Below, piece by piece: positions 45,301 through 62,056 of a stretch of 64,000 nt of DNA (within the stretch, counting starts at the first letter, position 1; every line of letters begins with the position of its first letter). The notes below the pieces were generated by a model, which was given only the letters and a program-made list of their open reading frames with translations, was not told the origin of the DNA and ran no database searches. Source of the stretch: Astrocystis sublimbata (lineage: Eukaryota; Ascomycota; Sordariomycetes; Xylariales; Xylariaceae); the NCBI GenBank assembly GCA_022453515.1, contig JAJNNY010000008.1, forward strand, positions 868,001 through 932,000. Reading direction: 5' to 3'. The position numbers and the translations under genes are program-made.

Positions 45301-47122
45301 ATGCTGAAATTTCTAGATCCGGTCCTTTGGGACAAGGGGCTGTGAATGTAATACATGCATATACTGGTGGGTGTATTATAGCATAGGATAGATGACGATG
45401 AGCAATGCATATGATTATCTACGTCCACTTGCTTACTATGGAACGTGCGACCCAGAAGGAACAGCAACATGTGAATCATATATTCTCTGAACGAGGTGAA
45501 TTGGGCCTATTGATGGGGCTGGGGTGTTCTTACTCATCTCGTCCCAACAAGACGTTAGTTTGGCAGATAACTTCGTTCCAGCCATACTACAACAGCAATT
45601 TCGAGATGCAAGAGGGACGGGCGCATCCACGCTAGCTGACTGTTGAATAACTAGAGCCTTTACGGATTTCCTTGGCTAACGTCAGTCCAAAGAGCTCGGT
45701 ACTGCTGATATTGACAACCGCAGCTGTGCAGGCTTCGGCCTTCAGCTAATATTGTCGTTCTACCTGTTGAATCCATTTCGTAAGCTTTGCAACCGCGTTG
45801 ATCTATCGCTAGCCAAGCCTACTTGCTGGCTCAAGGGGCAGAATATAGGCTATTTTTTATGTAACCTGGTGATTTGCTTCGTGGTAGAAGCGCCGACTGT
45901 AACTCCTCACCGAGATAGAGCCTTAGCCGAAGGGGAAGAGCAAGCCTAGCCAAACAGTCGACTAATTATAAGCCAGCAGAGTCATTCAAATGCCTGCTTG
46001 TCGCGACTACTCAAAGCATTCCTGCTACTCGATCAGGTATCAATTAAATCGTATTTCAAAAGAGAGTTCCTTCATCATATCTACACAATACAATACTCTG
46101 TTTAGAGCTGTCTGATATGAAGAAGTCATCGTCGAGCTGGGCCGCCTCCTGTGGCTTTATGAAGTACAGGTGCCTTCTCTCCCTGGTGTCTCATAAATTT
46201 GCGACGATTTGTCTGAAATCAGGAAGAAGCCAACTTGTTAGAGCCCAAGGTGTCATGGCTTGGACCAACTAGTTGCGGCTTCATGCCACGGCGCATTTGG
46301 GTAACAAATAGAGGAAGTTGTGATGTTTGTGATGCGCATCAAGGCACTGTTAGCCATACTATAGAGCTAATGATTTCCTAGCCTGGACACGTCAATAGTC
46401 GTCTGTTTCACACGCAATAGGAGACATCGAAAACTCTTACTAACCTTCTTGAGCGCATTACGCGAGCCAATTAGAGCCTGCGCGGGTCTGGTCTGTCATT
46501 GAAAAAGGAAAGGTACTTGTCTAAAAAGAAACTATCTCCAGATTCAACTAGCCTTGGATCATGTTGTTTCCCATTAATTGTCTGTTTCAGAGTTTAAGCT
46601 ATAAACGTTATGCCGGGCCGGCCGTTCTAGGGCATCAATTCTGGCCTGCTCATTGCACCATGACATGACTGGGCGATGTAGTTTTAAGCTTCGTGCGCCA
46701 GCTATTCTATTACTAAATCAGCGTGTTTCTCGACGGGCTTCATGCGTAAAGATGTGAAGGTGAGAACTGTAATATTATAGGTCGTGATGATGGCCTTCCC
46801 CAGGAATAACCACGCTGCCTCCGCGTCGATTGCCTCGTTTAGTTTAGCAGTTTATGGCAGCTTTGAAGGAGCCATGGTACTGAGCAGTCCTTGCAAGGAA
46901 AGGCATTCTTGTTTTCGCATGATTATGGCCATGTCATCGATGATGGCTTTTGAGAGTGTGGTTCATGATTCACAGCTGGTAGGAAAGTAGTATATATATC
47001 AATTGGATTTCGCTTTGAGGACATATTCTCGTACCAGCCCTCTATCGTACTCAAATTGAATCATTCGTTGCGCCCGGATAACTAGAAACCCCCTCAAAGC
47101 TGCAAAGATACCTTTGAACACA
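45301..47122. other. 1.8 kb gene-free region
   Basis: 3' flank of the MFS gene and upstream region of the cutinase-like gene. Rich in A/T from 45.6 kb onward. No gene or RNA recognised; only a TATA element near its right end is called. Confidence 0.5.
46991..46999 (+). promoter_or_regulatory. TATA box of the cutinase-like gene
   Basis: TATATATAT lies about 125 bases upstream of the start codon at 47123. Confidence 0.5.
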
Positions 47123-48115
47123 ATGCGATCCCTTGCTACCATTTCCCTGTTGTCCTTGCTGGCCATGTCGGCCACGGCTGTGCCGGTCGAGGACCAAGTG
47201 ATGAAGCGTGCGACATCGAGCGCGTGCCCAAGATATACCATCATCAATACTCGTGGCACTGGTGAGCGCCAGGGCCAGTCCTCCGGCTTCCGAACCATGA
47301 ACTCGCAAATCACGTCTCAGCTATCGGGCGGCAAGATTTACAACACCGTCTACCCGGCTGGCTTTGACCAGGACTCTGCCTCGGGAACTCAGGACATCAT
47401 CAACAAGATCCAGGGAACACTGCAAACCAACCCCAATGAGTGTTTCATCTTGCAAGGTTACTCTCAGGGCGCCGCTGCCACTGTTAATGCCATGCCACGT
47501 CTCAACAGCGCTCAATTTAATGCTGTAAAGGGTGTCTTCTTGATCGGAGATCCGCAGCGCCAGAAGGGATTGGCTGTAAGTATTGAACGCATGCAGCATC
47601 CTGATGATCGGGCCACACAAGGTAGCAGATCACCTTTCAAAGCTAGATGACTGACTCGAGTGCTATAGTGCAACATTGACAACAATGGAGGGACTACCAC
47701 TAAGAACGTAAGCGGGCTGTCAGCCAGAACGTCCAAGGGCATTCCAGCTGAATGGGTCAGCAAAACCTCCGACGTGTGCATATTTGTAAGTAATCTATGT
47801 GATACCTGAAGAACTGAAGTCAAATGATGACTAACATGCGGATGGCAGGGAGATGGAGTCTGTGACACCACGAACGGCCGGGGGATCAACGCTCAACAGT
47901 TAGTGTTTCCAAGTTATTTTACCACTTTTCGCATGTCATCTGCCACTACAGAGATCTCATGCTCGCGCATGCTCCTATAACAAACGAGTTGGATGCTTCT
48001 TACACGTAACGATCGCTAACTCCTTGTCTCTCACAGTCTCCAATACCCAAGAGACGCCAGCACTCAGAAATTGGGCGCTTCCTTCGCTATCCAGAAACTG
48101 GGGGGCTCCGCCTAA
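47123..48115 (+). CDS. secreted cutinase-family esterase (CE5)
   Basis: Four exons, 47123-47575, 47669-47785, 47849-47898 and 48037-48115; 232 residues, phases consistent. Signal peptide about 1-18, then a short propeptide ending in KR before ATSSACP. The catalytic triad is visible: Ser114 in GYSQG, Asp192 in GDGVCD and His207 at the exon 3/4 junction (AQH joined to LQYPRD), with the Asp-to-His spacing of about 15 seen in cutinases. The RGTGERQGQSSGF stretch forms the oxyanion region. Members hydrolyse cutin or acetylated xylan; the GTGE.QG stretch could fit either a cutinase or an acetylxylan esterase. Confidence 0.92.
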
Positions 48116-48639
48116 TATAGCTTCAATCTATAAATAAAATGTCGTTATGAGCTGGGATGTTTCACGATTATTAGAACTTGGTGGGCCAAACGGTTACTTG
48201 ACATGTATCCTCGAGTTGTGAAAAGACTTTCAAATAGACTGTTATTCTTATTCGTTGAGTACTAAAATTGATGTCTTTCATAGCTTGTTGCCTCCGAGTA
48301 TGGATTCCATCCACTGCATTATCCCCCCCCCCCCTCCCCCTTTATGAGATACGCCAGAAGATCGGGACCACCACACTGCTCCCCTAGCATAATTGATTGA
48401 CAAACGTCTTTGTATGGAATCTTTAAGATCTCCCTTGGTATTGTTACCTTGGTGGCATCCTCCGAACAAAGATTATCATATAGAGCATTGAAGCATTCTT
48501 TCACGATCGAAAGCGGCCGACCGCGTATGATTCTTTGTCATCCTACCTGGGCACAAGTGGCTTCCTAAAACTTGGCTCCTTGGATGCGACTATAGATGCT
48601 AATCCGTGATAACCAACCCTTCTAATTACTCACAGCAAG
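48116..48639. other. intergenic region with a poly-C tract
   Basis: No gene seen. Contains C12 followed by T and C5 at 48323-48340, which may cause sequencing or assembly errors. Confidence 0.5.
48323..48340 (+). repeat. poly-C homopolymer tract
   Basis: Twelve C, one T, five C. Exact length is uncertain in most sequencing technologies. Confidence 0.9.
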
Positions 48640-51069
48640 ATGTCAGCTCGGCAAATTTGGCCGTATAGGCATGTTGGGGTCGTATGTAACCCTTGGAGTC
48701 ATTTATTCCCCCTTATGGCAAGTCTCGGGAGTGTAAATTGCCGTAATAGGTATTTATACTCCCGAGAAGCCTGTAAAGCACTGTTTCATGAGCAATTCCT
48801 TTACTGTAAAAGGCAATTACTAACTCCAGCGGTTGTAGTGGCTACCCTGGTCTACCATAGTATATGACCTCGATGGTGAGTGGTTATTTGAAGAAGAACC
48901 AAATCATTTTGGTTTTCTCTTCCAAACTTCCATCCGGGAAAATATTTTCGTTGTGCAATCGAATCCGAACCCGAGACTTTATGTCAACAAGTTGGTGTAT
49001 CCTCGTATGTTCCATCCACTATCCTAGACTTCAGCTGCTGGACCTGCAATGTGAACCAGCACTAATTTGACAGGAAGGTGGCGAAGACTATGATGATGAT
49101 GGTAATCAACCGGTAGTGGCGGAATTGCGCTTTTCAACAACTCCGAGGGCAGATGTAATGCTTCCGAGAACATTGACTGTTAGGGGTCGGCAGAGGACAT
49201 ATTTTGCTGAGCTCGACATCTGGCAACACTTTGGTGACGAAAGACGTTCTTTGTACTTTAGGTGAGCTCAATTTCGACTTCGAATAAATTCAACACTGAC
49301 CACGGCGCATAGACATTATAACGGCGGCTCACTTGATAAACTCATAGCCCACCATCGTAGTCGGGGTCGAGCGGTTCCCGAACATTTCATATGGCACGTG
49401 CTGTTGACTCTCATAGAAGCGGTGAGATTTCTCAAGTTTGGCGTGTCACCAGACGGAAAGGAAGCCCCTGAGGGCTGGGTTGGTAAGTCAGCGTAGACCC
49501 AATTTCCTATATTGGTGTCAGGTCAAATGTGAGGAGTGCTAACGAATATGTCGCTGAAGCTATCCACCATCGCAAGTTAGTATAGTTGAGTCTTTGGTTC
49601 GCTAATTCGGCAAATGTTCTGCTTGAAAAAACGCTTCATGAAACACCTGATTTATCAATAAAAAGCTCCCCAACGATGGTAGATTCTAACTCTTTTTCTC
49701 TAATAGAATATCAGCCAGTAATAGTACGTTAGATAATGGCCTGTGTTGTTACCCTATCAATGGGGCCGATATAACCTTTGACCCAAATGCTCCAAAAGTT
49801 CTCTAAACCAACCTGGGGGCACACTTACTGACCAAAGTTCAATAAGTCTTCGTTCATTATCCTCCGCAAGCCGAGGACGAGCCCGATCTAGGATTTGAAG
49901 AGAATGCCTTCCCTGAACTGGTACTCGGTGACTTTGGGGATGCGGCACTGCAAACCGATCAAGACACCGAATTAGGTCGGCGTAGGATCTATAATGGTTT
50001 CTGGGACCAGCCCGGCGTGATAGCAGATTGGCATGACACGTATAGCATTTTCGCCACCGCGAAGCATTTGGCATCTCAAATACCACCCGGAGAACTTAGC
50101 CTCGGTATGTCACACCTTTCCAAAAGCTACGATATGAACCAGCAGGCGTACAAGCTGGTATGGTCCCAGGAACTTGGAATAAACACTTGGGTGTGATGTG
50201 TTATCGATGCTAATATTTACATATCAAATCAGCTAGCGAGATAAATGACAACTTGGGGGTGAATGAGCGACCATATTCAGACGAGTTGATTTGGTTGCTC
50301 CAAGAGTTTGAGTGGCCTAACATTGAGCACTTTCCTGCTATCACAGACCAGCAGGAGATCGAGGGCGAGATGGTGCCAAATTATGCACATATTCAAAACA
50401 GTATGCAACCCCTGGAGTTATTTATTCCCCCTTCTGGCAAGTCTCGGGAGCATAAATTGCCCTAACAGGTAGTTATACTTCCCGAGAAAACGCCTGCAAA
50501 CCACTGTTTCCCGGGCAATTATTTTACTGTAAAAGGCAATTACTAACTCCAGCGGTTTTGCAGTGCAATGGGTGATTGACCATTGGCTGGACGATGTGAG
50601 GAGACACGTGCAGTCGTATCGAAACCCTGACGTTAACGCATTACCTGATCGTTGGTGGAGTAAGTGATCGTGATCTCATCTCTGAACAAGATTGTTTCCT
50701 TTTTCACAGTCGAGGCTATGACAAGGCTTCACAAGTTTCTCTATCTGTCAACAGTCACTCACGTCTCTTGTAGGAAGGCTGGACGTATCGTGGACGATAC
50801 CGGACCCCTTTATGCCGTATGACTACAGGGAAACGGTAGTTGATGCGCCGAATCCTCCGGAGGGCCACGAATGTCCCGTGCCGAACCCAATGACCCAAAG
50901 AGCATTACTCGGGCCAATCCTTGAGGCCGCGGATAACCACCCTGAGCGACAAGCACATGTACTTAGATGCGTGGAATATCAGCGGCCAAGAGTCTCGGAG
51001 GTCAGAGTGCCTCCTGATCTACCTATCCCTGGCCCGCCGGGTCTCCCTGACCCCCCCGTCGCCAGTTGA
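48640..51069 (+). CDS. divergent protein-kinase-like protein with HRK in place of HRD
   Basis: Ten exons: 48640-48681, 48839-48875, 49078-49261, 49313-49482, 49560-49575, 49707-49723, 49847-50104, 50233-50400, 50564-50659 and 50774-51069; 427 residues, all phases closing. C-lobe landmarks: NGGSLDKLI, IWHVLLTLIEAVRFL, HHRKISASN (147-155, HRD equivalent with Lys150 where the catalytic Asp should be), LGDFGDA (Asp184-Phe-Gly), DTYSIFATAKHLA, and YSDELIWLLQEFEW. No glycine loop or clear ATP-binding Lys is seen in the N-terminal part, so it is probably a pseudokinase or starting to decay; the C-terminal 100 residues are Pro-rich. The 16- and 17-base exons are short but join into ISASNIFVHYPP, a kinase-like catalytic loop. 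Two introns are introner-like elements. The first two exons are the least certain. Confidence 0.65.
48682..48838 (+). mobile_element. introner-like element, copy 1 (intron 1 of the kinase-like gene)
   Basis: A 157-base intron with GTATGT donor, ACTAAC branch region and GTAG acceptor whose whole length aligns with the 163-base intron at 50401-50563. Conserved blocks: TTTATTCCCCCTT, GGCAAGTCTCGGGAG, TTTACTGTAAAAGGCAATTA and CTAACTCCAGCGGTT. It has a strong internal stem: 48724-48737 pairs with 48753-48766 with one mismatch in 14. Introner-like elements are multiplying, structured, near-identical spliceosomal introns described in Cladosporium fulvum and related fungi. Confidence 0.85.
50401..50563 (+). 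mobile_element. introner-like element, copy 2 (intron 8 of the kinase-like gene)
   Basis: A 163-base phase-1 intron aligned over its full length with copy 1. Splice sites are GTATGC and TTGCAG. The ends carry a perfect nine-base inverted repeat, CTGGAGTTA near the donor and TAACTCCAG at the branch region, and the CTCGGGAG..TTCCCGAG internal stem and TTTTACTGTAAAA palindrome are kept. Removing it joins CAAAACA to TGCAATGG and keeps the kinase C-lobe frame open, so it behaves as a true intron. Confidence 0.9.
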
Positions 51070-53549
51070 GCCTGCTGCTTAGACTTAGAGTCATAGTATC
51101 GGGGAGGTTGCCACTCCCCGCGAGGTCATGATTGGGTAGGCGGGGTTTCGCCATCGGATGTGCATTTTTAAGAGATACGAATATTTGTTGAAAGAGACAG
51201 AAAATGGAGGATACTGTCTGATTCCGAGTCCCTACGGCGCTATATAATTGTGCTTTTTGATTGTTTTATTTATCCTGATGGAGGGATTGTACAAATATAC
51301 TTGACATTAGCTATAACAGTTCAGGTCTACAGCTAGACCACAACACTACCAAAGATAGAACATTGTCAACTCGGAGGAATCGACCGTCTGTAGCCATTTA
51401 TACACGGAACCGTGACGTTGGCCTCGGCAAATGCAGTATTTATCGATTGGCAATTGAACGTTAGAGGCCCTGGATCTGAGACTAGGTACATAGTGGGCTT
51501 ACGTAGGCTTTTATAAAGGCCCTGCTCTGCGATCTTATAGTAGGTAGCATGTGATACGGTACTACCAGTATACTATGAAATTCTCATCAGTTCTCCTGTG
51601 CATTAGAGTTGCCCTCAGAGTATTCAGCTGTCCAACATGTCCTACTGTTTGGATCTACCATGCACCGCAGGTTGGAAGGTTAGTTGGAATAGTATTAGTA
51701 GCTGCAGTAGTAGTCGCAACTAGTAGCTGAGCCTTCTACTGTACTACTGTAGGCTAGGGGATGACGGCGGAAAGATAGAGCGAGGGTGCACTACGGGGTG
51801 GATCTGCTACTGTAGCGTAACGGTCGAGACGGGCCGGACGGTATCGCATACTCGTAATAGTAACAGCTTTAATAAGTAGGCGGGCTAACATCCACGAGAC
51901 AATCCATCGAGGCACTCCTTCGGTACTATGCAGTGGCTGACGACTACAGCCACATGCCGAGGCATCTATACACGAGAGTGAGGAGACGCTTGATTAGCGC
52001 ACCAAGATGACCCGCTCACTGGTAGATCGGCAGTCAGTGGGACGGATCGATGTTACGAGCTGCGCCGTAGGTAAGCTGTCACAAACAAGGTCGGCTCAAC
52101 ATGCAGCAAAGGCAGCTCCCCAGGCACTTAGGCGAGACCTAGGCACATGTGCGTAGATTGAAAAGTGGAGGTAGATCGCCCTCGATCGCCCAAGAAATAC
52201 GCACAACCACGAGGGGCACGGTGGGTGGGGTACTTACAAGGTGTCTCGGGGGTTGGGGAAGCGGGCTACGTAATCTATACTAGTAAATGTAGTGCGGAAA
52301 ATATAACTTGATTTAAGTCCCGACACGAGGGGATGGATGCAGTGACGGATCTCGTCATGGATGCAATCGCCTCTGATTCCAATCGTCATATTCCGACAGC
52401 CGAGCTGCATTCTCTTGGGGCACAGCATGCACAATAGTACATTAGGTACTGTAAGAATCATGGATGGCAATGTTACCCCAGTCGCCAGCTTTAGCCACCC
52501 GTTGGTATCTACTAGGGTGAATAAATCATTTCACGAATCGCAGTGAGTGTTGCCTTGACGGAGGTGCATTATGACTATACTACATAATAGATGGCACCGT
52601 AATTATCGATTCGTCCGAGATGGCCTTGTCTCCCAGATCTACTGTAGCGTTGGAACGCAGCAGCAGCAGCAGCAGCAGTTAACTGTCTTCGAGCACACCT
52701 GAAGATGGTGTCGTATTGCATTTTTCACTCGAGATTCTTCCATTATTGTTGCCAGCTTTGACATTGTGTCGTCATGTGAAGACGGACGGGATTGAACAAC
52801 CTTGTTATGGCCCGCTAGACTTGAACCATCCAAGGTGAAACGGCGCTCTAGCGCATGCAGGATGATGCAAATATTATCAACCGCAGAGCGAGTCTAGACT
52901 CTAGACGGACGCTAATTGGAGCACGAGCGCGCCTCTCGATGCCACCACCCGACTGACAGTCCTACTTACATACCGGGCATGCCGGGATCAAAGTATCCTG
53001 GGGTCAGGTAGCATTACCAAAATATCCACAGTTTCATATAATGATATGATATTATTAAATAGATATTAGATGTTAGCCCGCAAAAGAAGAAAGGTTTGAC
53101 ACTGGCGTGAACGCCATAACGTGTCGTGGATGGGTTGTGCCAATCAGGTGGTCGATGAAACTGCTCCGGCACGATTTGCGAACGACCTCACTGATGGGGG
53201 TGCGGGTGCATGCAGGCGTTGCTGAAGGATTCGCTAGAGGAACTGCTTCGTCAACGTCATAGCGGGGCGTCATTTTGCCCGTCTGTCACAATAACTTGAA
53301 ATGTGCAATCCATACTACTGCTACGTACATAGTATGTGTGAATCTATCATATAGTGCTGCTCGCAGCCGTTGTCACCCATTTCCCACTTCTCTCCAGTTC
53401 TCTCATATAACATAGTATATCATATACTTATATCAGGGGCGTAGGCACATCCACTTCAAGTCCTACTCTAATTACAGGCACGCTCCTTGATAATAAAATA
53501 ACTGCCAGCCAGATCTATTCCTAATTCACGTGGCACTTTACTACACATA
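51070..53549. other. 2.5 kb gene-free region
   Basis: No gene is supported. Around 51.65-51.85 kb words such as TAGTAGCTG and CTACTGTA recur. A (CAG)7 tract lies at 52658-52678. A possible 5' leader of the following gene occupies the last 100 bases. Confidence 0.5.
52658..52678 (+). repeat. CAG trinucleotide microsatellite, seven units
   Basis: Seven perfect CAG units. Read on the minus strand it encodes a run of cysteines in one short frame, which is not taken as a gene. Confidence 0.9.
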
Positions 53550-56500
53550 ATGGAGGTCGAGAGCCTGATACCCACGCTGCAACAGACGTTGTCGGACATC
53601 ATAAACACCGTCAATGGTCTCTCCACCCAGTCCCAAGATGACGAGCTCGACCGATTGGAGCAGGAGCGAGAACGCCGATTGGCAGACCTACACGCCTCCA
53701 ACGAAAGCGACAGGAAAGAAGCAGAATCCAAGCGCCGTTCCAAACTCGAGGAGATACAGAAGAAGCGAAAGCAAGAAGATGAAGAGCGAGAAGCCCGACG
53801 TCGACAAGAGGACCAGGACCTGGAGAAGGCCAATTCCGAACAGGACAAACAACTGCAAGAGAAGCATGACAGTGCCGTCGGCTCTGTTGAAGATGAGACG
53901 GATCAGAAGATGAACGAGATCGAGGAGGCAGCCAGGAAGATCTCCGAGGAAGGAGAGAAGAAGCTGCGCAACCTGGATGAGAAGAGACAGGTGAGGACAT
54001 CAGACATACTCAACATACACGGCTTTCGCGTAATTACAAGCTAACCCTGAGTTCGCAGGAATTGAACCGCCGCATCGACGAGCAGCTGAAACAATCCGTT
54101 CCCACCACTCCTGTGCGCGACAGGCGCAGATCACGGAAGGGATCCCACAACACTCCCAAAAAGGAGTCAGATGACCAACCGAAGAAAGAGTCGGATGATA
54201 CCCAGGGGAAAGATTCGGAAGAAAATCAGAAGAAAGTTTCCGATAACACCCAGAAGGTGTCCAATGATACTCAGAAGGTGTCCGATGATACTCAGAAGAA
54301 GGTGTCCGATAACTCACAGAAGAAGAAATCCGACGACACCCAGCAGGCGTCCGATGATATTCAGAAGGCGTCTGATGATACTCAGAAGAAGAGATCCGAT
54401 GACACCCAGAGGCAATCCAATGACATCCAGAAGGCGTCCGATGACACCCAGAAGAAGGAGTCCGATAACACTCAAAAGGCGTCCGATGATATTCAGAAGA
54501 AGGAGTCTCGCGATGCCGCTAAGAAAGCACCCAATGAGAATCCAAAAGGATCCGATGACACCCAGCAGAAGGAGTCTCGTGATACTGCTAAGAAAACACC
54601 CGATGACAGTTCAAAAGGATCCAATGACAATAATCAGAAGGGATCTGAAAGCAAGCCAAACAAAAACAAAGAAGATACGAAAAAGACTCCTGGGGACCGC
54701 CAGAAGAATAACCCCGACGACCCGTACAAGATTTTCGAAGACTCCAAAGTGATTGAATCCGAAGAGGCTAAGAAGAAAGGATCCAATGATCGCCAGGAAA
54801 ACGGATCCAAAGGTGCCCAGAGCAACGGGTCTGTTGACAAACCAAAGAAGGAATCCAATGGCACTCACCAAGACGAGCGCAATGATTCTTCCAAAAAGAA
54901 TGCCGACGATAATCAGAAGACTAAGTCTGATAAAAGTGAAAAGAAAAAGGACTCAGGTGACAATCAGAAAGAAAAGGCCCACGACAGTCCGAAGAAAGAC
55001 TCCGACAGGAGGCAAAAGAAGGAGTCCGATGACGCCGGAAAGGAAGAGTCTCATCATGCTTCGAAGAACAAGTCCGACGACAGTCGGAAGAATGATTCCG
55101 ACAAGAGGCAAAAGAAAGAGTCCGATGACACCGAGAAGGATGAGTCAGATCATGCTTCGAAGAAAAAGTCTGACAAGAGTCGAAAGAACGGATCCGACAG
55201 TACTCCGAAGAAATCTAGCGACAGCCAGAAATATGACCTGGAGAGTCCCAAATCGAGCTCCAAATCTAGGAGCAGGCACAACACACACTCAGATTCTCGG
55301 CCACCGTCTGCCACAGATTCGCCAGGGAAATCATCCGAGCCCAAGAAAGACGGTGAGCTGCCCTCCCCCCAATGGTCCAACAGTCCTTCGTTAGCAGCGG
55401 AGGATTTCGTTAAGAACTCGGCGATATCACTTGCGGAGGCTCTAAGAGACGACTTGTCTAATGACTCAAAGGGCAAGCCAAAAGTCGGAGAGCTTAGCTC
55501 AGACGAGGCAAAGCGGGCGGGGCCCAACGATGGCGGTAGGTGAGAACTGGGGGGTTGTATTTGTAGCGATCGGGCACTGATATGTTGTGCCAGGGAACGG
55601 TAACGAAGCTTTGAGAACCGACGACCGTGGGCAGTCAGGTCTGCAGGAAGCAACCTGTACACCCATGAAAATGGAGAGTGTAACAACACGAGGTAGTGAT
55701 GAGAATTCTGCTGCAGAATCTGAGACTGTTCTTACAAAGGGGAACGATTCTTTCGAAAATGACGGACTGTTGTCCGAAGTTGATCCGCTAGTACATGCTC
55801 GTCCTAAGGATCATAATGACATGCCAAATGGATGTTCATCGACACTCATCTCCAGACGCAAAACAGATCCAATTCTCTCCCAACAGAGTCAATTGAAGCC
55901 CCAGCCTAGCTCTGCCCAAGACTACAGGCCTAAGAGCTCGAATCTGGAAATGAAACCACGCCCTTCAGCCCCTCTACAAAGCGTCGACACTCGCATTCCT
56001 TTTGCTAAGGGGATAGACAACGGTGAGATGGGTGAAATTTACCCAACTGGTGAGAAATCCAAAGTCTTGGAGATGGAACAAGGGAAATACCATACGTCAC
56101 ATCACTCCAAAGATGACCCAGACACCACTGTTGGTATTTCAACAATTGCTCGAAATTTGTTTGTGCTGCTTCTAACACACAATCAGAAGATGATACCCTC
56201 CACACACTTCAGTCCCCGAGGCTGCCAACTACACCTACAAAGCGAAGCCCAAGGGGACAAGGTCAAAAGACAGACGATCAGATTGGGTCCCAGTGGCCAG
56301 TATCTCCGGATACATTTAAACAAAGCCACCCATCAGGCAGAGATTCTTCGGACTCTTTAAGACGTTTACGTGCTCTAGGGGAGGCGTCGCAGGCCTCATC
56401 CCAAGGCGGCTTCCCAACACCCCAAATTCGCCTGCACGATAGTCCTGTCTCCTTCGATGAAAGGAAGGTGGCCGAACGCTCGCCGCAGTTCGGATCGATC

Positions 56501-60548: not shown

Positions 60549-62056
60549 CTACAATGTATTGAAAAAGGATAGCACCGCCTCCAACACAGCCTCGGGTTGC
60601 TCTTGCTGCACCCAGTGACCAGCACCGTCCACCAGTGTGACGCCCCTGAAGCAGCCTGCCTTGACCGTTTTCGCATCTTCATAGCTCTCGAGGGCGCCAG
60701 GCTGCTGATAGTTGCCCCAGTCCTGTTTACCGCTCACAAATGCGCACGGAACTTCGATACTCCTGCCAGCATACAGCAGCAAGTCGCGAGCCGACTGTGG
60801 CGTTGTCGCTGTTTGTGCGCGATACCACTATAGCCACTGGGGTCAGCGACTGCCAATGGAAGCCAAGAGTTGCCCAAGATTCGGAAATAGCGATTTTCTC
60901 GAGAACAGAGATGCCCATTAGGGCCGCCCATGCCCCTGAGACGTGCCAGAAGGGGAATGATAACTCTAAGATCACTTACATTCAAGGCGCCCTGGAACCC
61001 CGTTCGTTTCCACTCGTCGCAATACACTTGAAGATCGTCCTTTGAAAGCCACTTCTCTGTTTTGGTGTAGTCTTCACCAGTCACTAGTGCATACAAGGGT
61101 CAGTACATGCCACTTGTGAAAATAGCCTCCTGCTTTGGGGCCTCTGTTTGCGTACTGTTGCGTGCCACGCTATCAGGCATGGAGTCCTCTTTTCGCATGA
61201 CATAGTATTCAGGCATCGCCGCCATTACAGCGGCATTCCACTCCTTGAGCGGATGGGGGTCGTTCTTGGCCCAGTCTGCAGACTTCAGGTGGAAGTATCC
61301 GCGCAAGAACTTCTCTAGGCCCTGGGGTGGGTTATCCCATTCCGGTGCTGCTTCGGGTGTTGAATTGTACCACTTGTAATGCTTGCGTGGGGGTTCCAGC
61401 CTGGCCAGCTCCGCCTGAATGTCAAGCTTTGCATTTGCTGGTTTTCCTTTCGTCTGCGGCATCGGGGGTGGGTGATGTGGGTGTGATAGCTGAATGGTGG
61501 ATTTGAAGACGTCTGGACGTATTAAAGCCGCCATGGCCGAGCTCACGCCGCCGAAGTCGTGGCCGATGATGCTGAAGACCTCCGCGTATCCCAAACCGTA
61601 TACAAGGCAAACCAAATCACGGACAAGGTTAGTAAAGACATAGTCTTGCAACTCGACATCGTGGAATGACTGTTGCTGTTGCCCCTGTCCAGTTGTCCGA
61701 CCATAGCCCCTCTGGTCCATAGCAACACAGTAATAGCCAGCATCGGCGACCCGTGGTAGGATCTTCCGCCAAGAGTACGCAAGTTCTGGATAGCCACTGT
61801 TGGCCCATAGGAGTCAGCAATCGTCATTCCTTGGTAAGGATCAGATTGTCATCTGAAGGCTTGCATATTAGATGGATAGTAAACACCGATCAACTTACTG
61901 GCAGAATAGCACCATCGGCTTCCCTGGCTCTCCAGCCTGCAACACATGCCAATTGAGGCCGCATGATTCTCGGCAGTCAATGTAGTCTTCCGTGACACCG
62001 ACTGGCAGCTTCATCGGTGGAAGCTGCTCAACTGGCTCGTTTCCATCGTTCCCCAT
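60549..62056 (-). CDS. alpha/beta-hydrolase, epoxide hydrolase-like
   Basis: Four exons, 62056-61899, 61796-61156, 61083-60980 and 60827-60549; 393 residues, phases consistent. Landmarks of soluble epoxide hydrolases: oxyanion loop HGYPELAYSW built across intron 1, MDQRGYGRT, nucleophile Asp133 in IIGHDFGG (haloacid-dehalogenase-like Asp rather than Ser), a cap domain with EYYVMRKED and RTGFQGALNWYR, and the charge-relay His372 in GAGHWVQQEQP. It would hydrolyse epoxides to diols in the cytosol; the natural substrate is unknown, and fluoroacetate-dehalogenase-like activity is an alternative for this fold. Intron 2 uses donor GTACGC, chosen because the frame otherwise stops early. It is co-oriented with the adenylate-forming enzyme 760 bases away. 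Confidence 0.9.

Follow-up and report, generated by a model that had tools for sequence, protein, structure and literature searches.

Why do two introns of a single gene resemble each other from end to end? This question is raised by a window of 64,000 nucleotides (contig JAJNNY010000008.1, positions 868,001 to 932,000, forward strand), the host of which is very probably Astrocystis sublimbata (Xylariaceae, Xylariales), a placement with which the nearest proteins of another gene in the window agree. It leads directly to an old and still open question, namely how new spliceosomal introns originate. An RNA-driven mode is assumed for fungal introners, since they come without the marks of transposons. 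Two questions are therefore addressed here. First, do the two introns belong to a mobile family? Second, by which route would such introns have entered their genes? On the first, leaving the route aside, we are highly confident that both are copies of a mobile introner family. The second is answered with much more reserve.

Two alike introns in one host gene

Copy 1 and copy 2 (Table 1) are alike over their whole length, with 83% identity (136 of 163 aligned columns). As the initial annotation had stated, both begin and end exactly at splice sites (GT..AG), and they split the reading frame in different phases, GTC/TGG for copy 1 and AAC A/TG for copy 2 (a slash marks an intron position throughout). 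The internal stems that it had proposed are borne out by folding, with −55.1 kcal/mol (z −6.2) for copy 1 and −51.7 kcal/mol (z −4.4) for copy 2. The nine-base inverted repeat reported for copy 2 is indeed perfect, and its counterpart in copy 1 differs at two of the nine bases. A palindrome, TTTTACTGTAAAA (arms TTTTAC and GTAAAA around T), had been described for both introns; it is exact in copy 2, and copy 1 has CTTTACTGTAAAA instead.

Table 1. Positions of the host gene exons, the family members and their repeat arms within the window
Feature	Position	Strand	Description
Host gene exon 1 (MSARQIWPYRHVGV)	48640..48681	+	hand-made gene model
Introner copy 1, subfamily A	48682..48838	+	157-nt intron, donor GTATGT, acceptor TAG, phase 0, followed by exon TGG
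Copy 1, 5′ arm of near-terminal inverted repeat (CTTGGAGTCA)	48692..48701	+	folding, alignment of copies
Copy 1, central hairpin	48722..48767	+	arms GTCTCGGGAG 48722-48731 and CTCCCGAGA 48759-48767
Copy 1, 3′ arm (TAACTCCAG)	48821..48829	+	overlaps branch-point-like motif TACTAAC 48818-48824
Host gene exon 2, continuing the open frame of exon 1	48839..49004	+	hand-made gene model
Host gene exon 3	49078..49261	+	hand-made gene model
Introner copy 2, subfamily A	50401..50563	+	163-nt intron, donor GTATGC, acceptor CAG, phase 1, followed by exon TGC
Copy 2, 5′ arm of perfect 9-base inverted repeat (CTGGAGTTA)	50412..50420	+	folding, alignment
Copy 2, 3′ arm (TAACTCCAG)	50544..50552	+	overlaps TACTAAC 50541-50547
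Third, diverged copy in epoxide hydrolase gene	60828..60979	-	152-nt intron, donor GTAAGT, acceptor TAG, at conserved LN/WYR

The host gene extends from 48640 to about 51070 (+) and has, by its motifs (VNKLV, HHRK in place of HRD, and DFG), the look of a degenerate protein kinase. Nearly all of its 15 database hits are from Xylariales, some of them named protein kinase domain-containing; no Pfam family was found for this kinase-like protein at E 0.1. A search of Rfam with 47000-52000 gave no match up to E 1. Elsewhere in the window, at 54062-55543 (+), lies a long open frame with lysine/serine/aspartate-rich repeats (SDDTQKK-like).

A large and recently mobile family

The initial annotation had predicted many near-full-length matches lying exactly in introns, and this prediction came true. 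When BLAST, pattern searches, queries from other subfamilies and extra nhmmer hits in the fetched loci are merged, the family occupies at least about 135 distinct places in the 42.6 Mb genome. BLAST with copy 1 accounts for at least 41 matches (40 of 107 first-look candidates scored), and queries from other subfamilies added more places, each from the best 40 of 125-135 candidates. A 23-base pattern of the family, allowed 3 mismatches at most, was found at 72 sites and a 5′-end pattern at 35 sites; written backwards, neither pattern was found at all. Two ordinary introns of the window, with ends set by reading, match only themselves. Since the reversed patterns gave nothing and ordinary introns match only themselves, the similarity within the family is not due to chance. 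An 18-base core pattern had no exact match in viral contigs.

The boundaries of the element were assessed in 83 near-full-length nhmmer hits, including both L026 and its duplicate L027. A GT donor stands at the element end in 82 of them, L044 being the exception. In 78 of the 83, donor and acceptor were located automatically near the ends of the model, the donor in a range from 7 bases before its start to 10 bases after it, and four further GT donors (L018, L019, L029 and L035) were assigned by eye. Inspected by eye, the similarity among copies ends at the splice sites. Left unspliced, the element would bring an in-frame stop in 73 of the 78 copies, and its length is not a multiple of three in 64 of the 78. 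Among 45 copies in long loci, the open frame across the spliced junction is longer in sense than in antisense in 41 and longer in antisense in 4, with medians of 147 and 75 codons, respectively. Random positions, read on the better strand, have a median of 115 codons, only moderately under 147, so that the frame lengths alone are a modest argument and the strand contrast is the stronger one. The copies thus appear to lie mostly in sense orientation within genes, a reading of the sequence that leaves room for some copies between genes. L019 and L029, of 145 nt each, start at GTGAGTCATTTATT, some 12 bases further in than the usual 5′ end, and have a different donor; possibly they form a fifth subfamily.

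L009 and L010, which are located in unrelated genes, agree at all 157 nt, so that the movement is recent. The flanks of L010 look, by reading, like an acetyltransferase. Within subfamilies, the closest copies are up to 99% (D) and up to 97% (C) alike. Two of the roughly 135 places are apparently due to segmental duplication, because L026/L027 (contig C11) and L105/L106 (contigs C107/C95) have identical flanks. The family is clearly real and recently mobile.

The members are unevenly spread. Contig C107 (538 kb) holds 13 of them against about 1.7 expected for an even spread. Twelve pairs are less than 2.5 kb apart, compared with about one expected by arithmetic under random placement, and in all 12 both members are on the same strand. 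At L016 (contig C126), two copies at 2818-2673 and 2672-2516 (-) stand back to back (CAG/GTATGC) with an exon of zero length between them; from the sequence, the less diverged copy seems to have entered precisely where the other meets its 3′ exon. The initial annotation had taken the different phases of copies 1 and 2 as a sign of independent insertions. Copies of different subfamilies occur within one neighbourhood, and the insertions are therefore independent.

Insertion without gain or loss of codons

In comparisons of proteins, five junctions, which belong to four host genes, show neither gain nor loss of a codon. The protein of the kinase-like host was assembled by hand and aligned with its 15 hits, nearly all of them Xylariales homologues. 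The junction of copy 1 (PYRH-GV/..) is reached by 13 of the 15, none of them with an indel. There is no indel at the junction of copy 2 either, one row (P0250) having one extra residue three columns away, and the Met at the split codon is present in 8 of 14 hits from other species. P0241, an annotated Astrocystis sublimbata protein, is 100% identical over the covered part of the host and reads HIQN/MQWV straight across copy 2; its start lies downstream of copy 1.

L009 interrupts a 6-phosphogluconate dehydrogenase at GIEQG/M, and in an alignment of 121 rows (120 homologues and the query) no row has a gap within six columns of the junction, the Met itself being present in 114. L025 lies in a GH43 enzyme at YP/MGRETV, for which a solved relative has YPMGRETV; likewise, a solved relative of the epoxide hydrolase has LNWYR at the position of the third copy in the window. 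Because Met and Trp have single codons, the T and G that follow these three insertions must have been there before. At a sixth junction, that of L042 in an agmatinase, the two solved relatives that match best belong to the bacterial type and are without 8-10 residues beside it. When ten spliced host fragments were compared with Pfam, six gave a single match across the junction, two matched elsewhere and two matched nothing. The host genes are unrelated and of different families.

Subfamilies and the exon letters beside them

The family can be divided into subfamilies A to D. They have a core in common (CTGGAGTC...GACTCCAG) and are set apart by their two terminal stretches and by the neighbouring exon letters. 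These letters were counted for 103 introns with assigned ends, the subfamily being set from the intron sequence and not from the flank. The count leaves out L027 and L106 (duplicates), L094 (partial), L044 (no donor), L111 and L112 (3′ end not assignable), the truncated or low-scoring nhmmer hits and the places found but not fetched; the ends of seven introns, those of L018 and the 3′ ends in C and D were assigned by eye or from a motif. Subfamily A is followed by T at +1 in 62 of 65 copies and by G at +2 in 42 of 65, B by A at +1 in 7 of 9, and C by GT at +1 and +2 in 12 of 13; D is preceded by AG at −2 and −1 in 13 of 16. If T is expected once in four and the copies are taken as independent, the chance of the T after A is about 1e-33. 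One of the three exceptions in A, L016_2818, is the diverged member of the back-to-back pair described above, directly followed by the less diverged copy, which on this sequence seems to have entered between the AG of L016_2818 and its T.

What could set these letters? A target-site duplication was sought in 56 A copies by comparing 30 × 30 pairs of border positions with permuted pairs, and none was found. The best single z was 3.3 among 900 and the best diagonal z 3.4, at offset 21, which would not fit a duplication adjoining the element; both are regarded as noise. In C and D, the GT or AG could equally be a 2-bp duplication or a target preference. Alternatively, the AG in front of D introns may help U1 to recognise the weaker donor GTCAGT.

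Priming by homology to the 3′ exon of the parent, for which positions +2 to +6 would be common to nearest relatives, found no support (p = 0.078 for A and 0.129 for C); the best of 32 such tests (C, +4 to +8, p 0.014) is unconvincing after correction, and the exon letters do not follow nearest relatives beyond the level of the subfamily. For a single intron position that could pair with this letter in subfamilies A, B and C alike, two candidate columns came up, and inspection by hand gave no consistent register for the second and third letters.

We tentatively propose, as a reading somewhat less probable than an even chance, that each subfamily follows an insertion code of its own, one to three exon letters long, that changes with the termini of the intron: A would enter in front of T or TG, B in front of A, C in front of GT or GTG, and D behind AG. 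Mobility would then be target-selective, with the target read from the intron ends, and would not be random reverse splicing. If this code were true, C and D would be the first splice-site co-option in an ascomycete introner among the literature compared.

Folding and complementary ends

Of 96 copies folded, 70 have a z below −2 (median −3.2), and a terminal stem of at least 6 bp is formed in 82. L009, of the youngest group, reaches −62.2 kcal/mol (z −7.0), its ends joined in a terminal stem around a long central hairpin. Near-terminal inverted repeats of 9 bases or more are present in the family, those of A being of the GCAACUC-CUGGAGUCA type. Measured against its own shuffles, the antisense strand is no less stably folded (median z −3.9 vs −3.2 in sense), and the common stem pairs show no strand bias, with 188 sense G-U cells vs 147 A-C cells. 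RNAalifold found no consensus structure for 70 copies. Selected RNA structure on the sense strand, which we had considered, is thus unsupported. The complementary ends are certain and selection at the RNA level is unproven, because antisense folds equally well and stem changes come without strand bias.

Possible routes of movement

In every subfamily the splice sites bound the conserved unit even though the termini differ, from which we infer that the moving unit is the spliced intron. An RNA-mediated route seems to us the most likely, with about an even chance of being right. The introner itself we regard as a spliceosomal intron of about 157 nt that multiplies in the genome and enters coding sequence complete and spliceable. 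On the RNA-mediated route, the excised intron would fold so that donor and acceptor come to lie side by side; reverse splicing, or a related reaction, would place it seamlessly at a new exon position, and the inserted intron RNA would then be copied into DNA. Exon letters specific to each subfamily are not predicted by random reverse splicing.

The main alternative, which is clearly less probable, places the movement at the level of DNA. A non-autonomous, MITE-like transposon with inverted terminal repeats would carry splice sites by chance, and in a co-option version the donor of C would be a duplicated target GT and the acceptor of D a duplicated target AG. It is not hard to see why such an element comes to mind: the near-terminal inverted repeats measure 9 bases or more, the stem pairs vary without strand bias, 13 of the 107 nhmmer hits are copies matched on the opposite strand, and the GT after C and the AG before D are just the pattern expected from co-option by a 2-bp duplication. 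The largest subfamily does not fit this picture. A shows no duplication in the 56 copies scanned; its T could, by our reasoning, be half of a duplication only at the cost of a shift in the frame; and the conserved Met (ATG) and Trp (TGG) codons in homologues indicate that the T preceded the insertion. Moreover, the six extra 5′ ends, inspected by eye, all have a 3′ part within 200 bases and include no longer, possibly autonomous form. Neither the RNA-mediated nor the DNA-level route explains why A inserts before T.

End joining could also capture the excised intron at double-strand breaks, as RNA or as cDNA, and selection would then spare only the seamless and spliceable cases; we consider this unlikely. 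The model was proposed for sister introns of Hypoxylon (PMC8469720). It would account for insertion without duplication and without gain or loss of codons, and the fold does bring both intron ends together; it leaves the T after 62 of 65 A copies without a reason, and in the handful of host genes compared there is no copy with added or lost codons. Finally, it is very improbable that old introns were never inserted and owe their likeness to gene conversion or to duplicated gene segments. Outside the two duplicated pairs with identical flanks, the flanks of the listed copies are, by eye, unrelated and the similarity stops at the splice sites, and members of different subfamilies are close neighbours on one strand (L033, L024).

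Comparison with known introner families

Nearest by kind among published elements are the sister introns and stwintrons of Hypoxylaceae and Xylariaceae. They belong to the same order, and as in the present family introns are repeated in unrelated genes, insertion is seamless, some copies are recent, the complementary ends bring the terminal Gs together and the introns are functional on the coding strand only. For the Hypoxylaceae sister introns, the available part of PMC8469720 reports inverted repeats of 45-55 nt, seamless insertion and no exon pattern, and for 288 stwintrons that of PMC12403724 reports neither duplication nor co-option, with 5′-exon AG and 3′-exon GU at about chance level. 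Here, in contrast, more than 100 copies are found in one genome, and T, GT or AG is nearly fixed in each subfamily. The present element also differs from the stwintrons in being a single canonical intron, with no second intron nested in it and with a different terminal repeat. The GGU start of the [D1,2] sister stwintrons, together with a second intron that splits the donor between nucleotides 1 and 2, does not occur here: in the copy lists A, B and C begin with GTATG after variable exon bases, and D copies are mostly preceded by G and leave no remainder of a donor after their acceptor. Near-terminal repeats of the GUAUAAAAAC type, which the [D1,2] stwintrons carry, are likewise absent when compared by reading.

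The initial annotation had also pointed to the introner-like elements of Cladosporium fulvum. The introner-like nature is supported, and identity with that family is not, the host here being a member of the Xylariaceae. The Dothideomycetes elements (PMC4457414) are many near-identical canonical introns that form several families per species and occur in genes with two copies, and in all these respects the present family is similar. They belong to another fungal class, and the preference for AG/GY sites attributed to them in PMC8469720 is, as described, not the T rule found here. Gozashti et al. (2022) found introners to be similar in sequence and enriched in genes, some groups having inverted repeats or co-option, and treated the ascomycete families as an outlier without inverted repeats (criterion 6 or more) or duplications, as far as the available text of PMC9860276 goes. 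Unlike these surveyed ascomycete introners, the present family carries inverted repeats near its termini, and they measure 9 bases or more. The name Astrocystis is absent from the main text of PMC12403724 and of PMC9860276, two papers retrieved for Astrocystis sublimbata deal, by their titles, with other matters, and the literature on introners and on Xylariales that was covered, with supplements, most subscription journals and preprints outside its scope, does not describe the family.

Implications for intron gain

Introns that copy themselves are a known but poorly understood way to new introns, and a letter preference beside the insertion is unexpected. The family described here is introner-like and has an unusual insertion-site signature that is measurable and unexplained, its route of movement being unproven. 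Its ends are complementary, some of its copies are fresh and identical, and the letter beside the insertion is nearly invariant and specific to the subfamily. With these three features the competing models of intron gain can be told apart: reverse splicing at random would leave no preferred letter, and transposition with co-option would leave a GT or AG in duplicate, whereas a T is expected from neither model in its present form.
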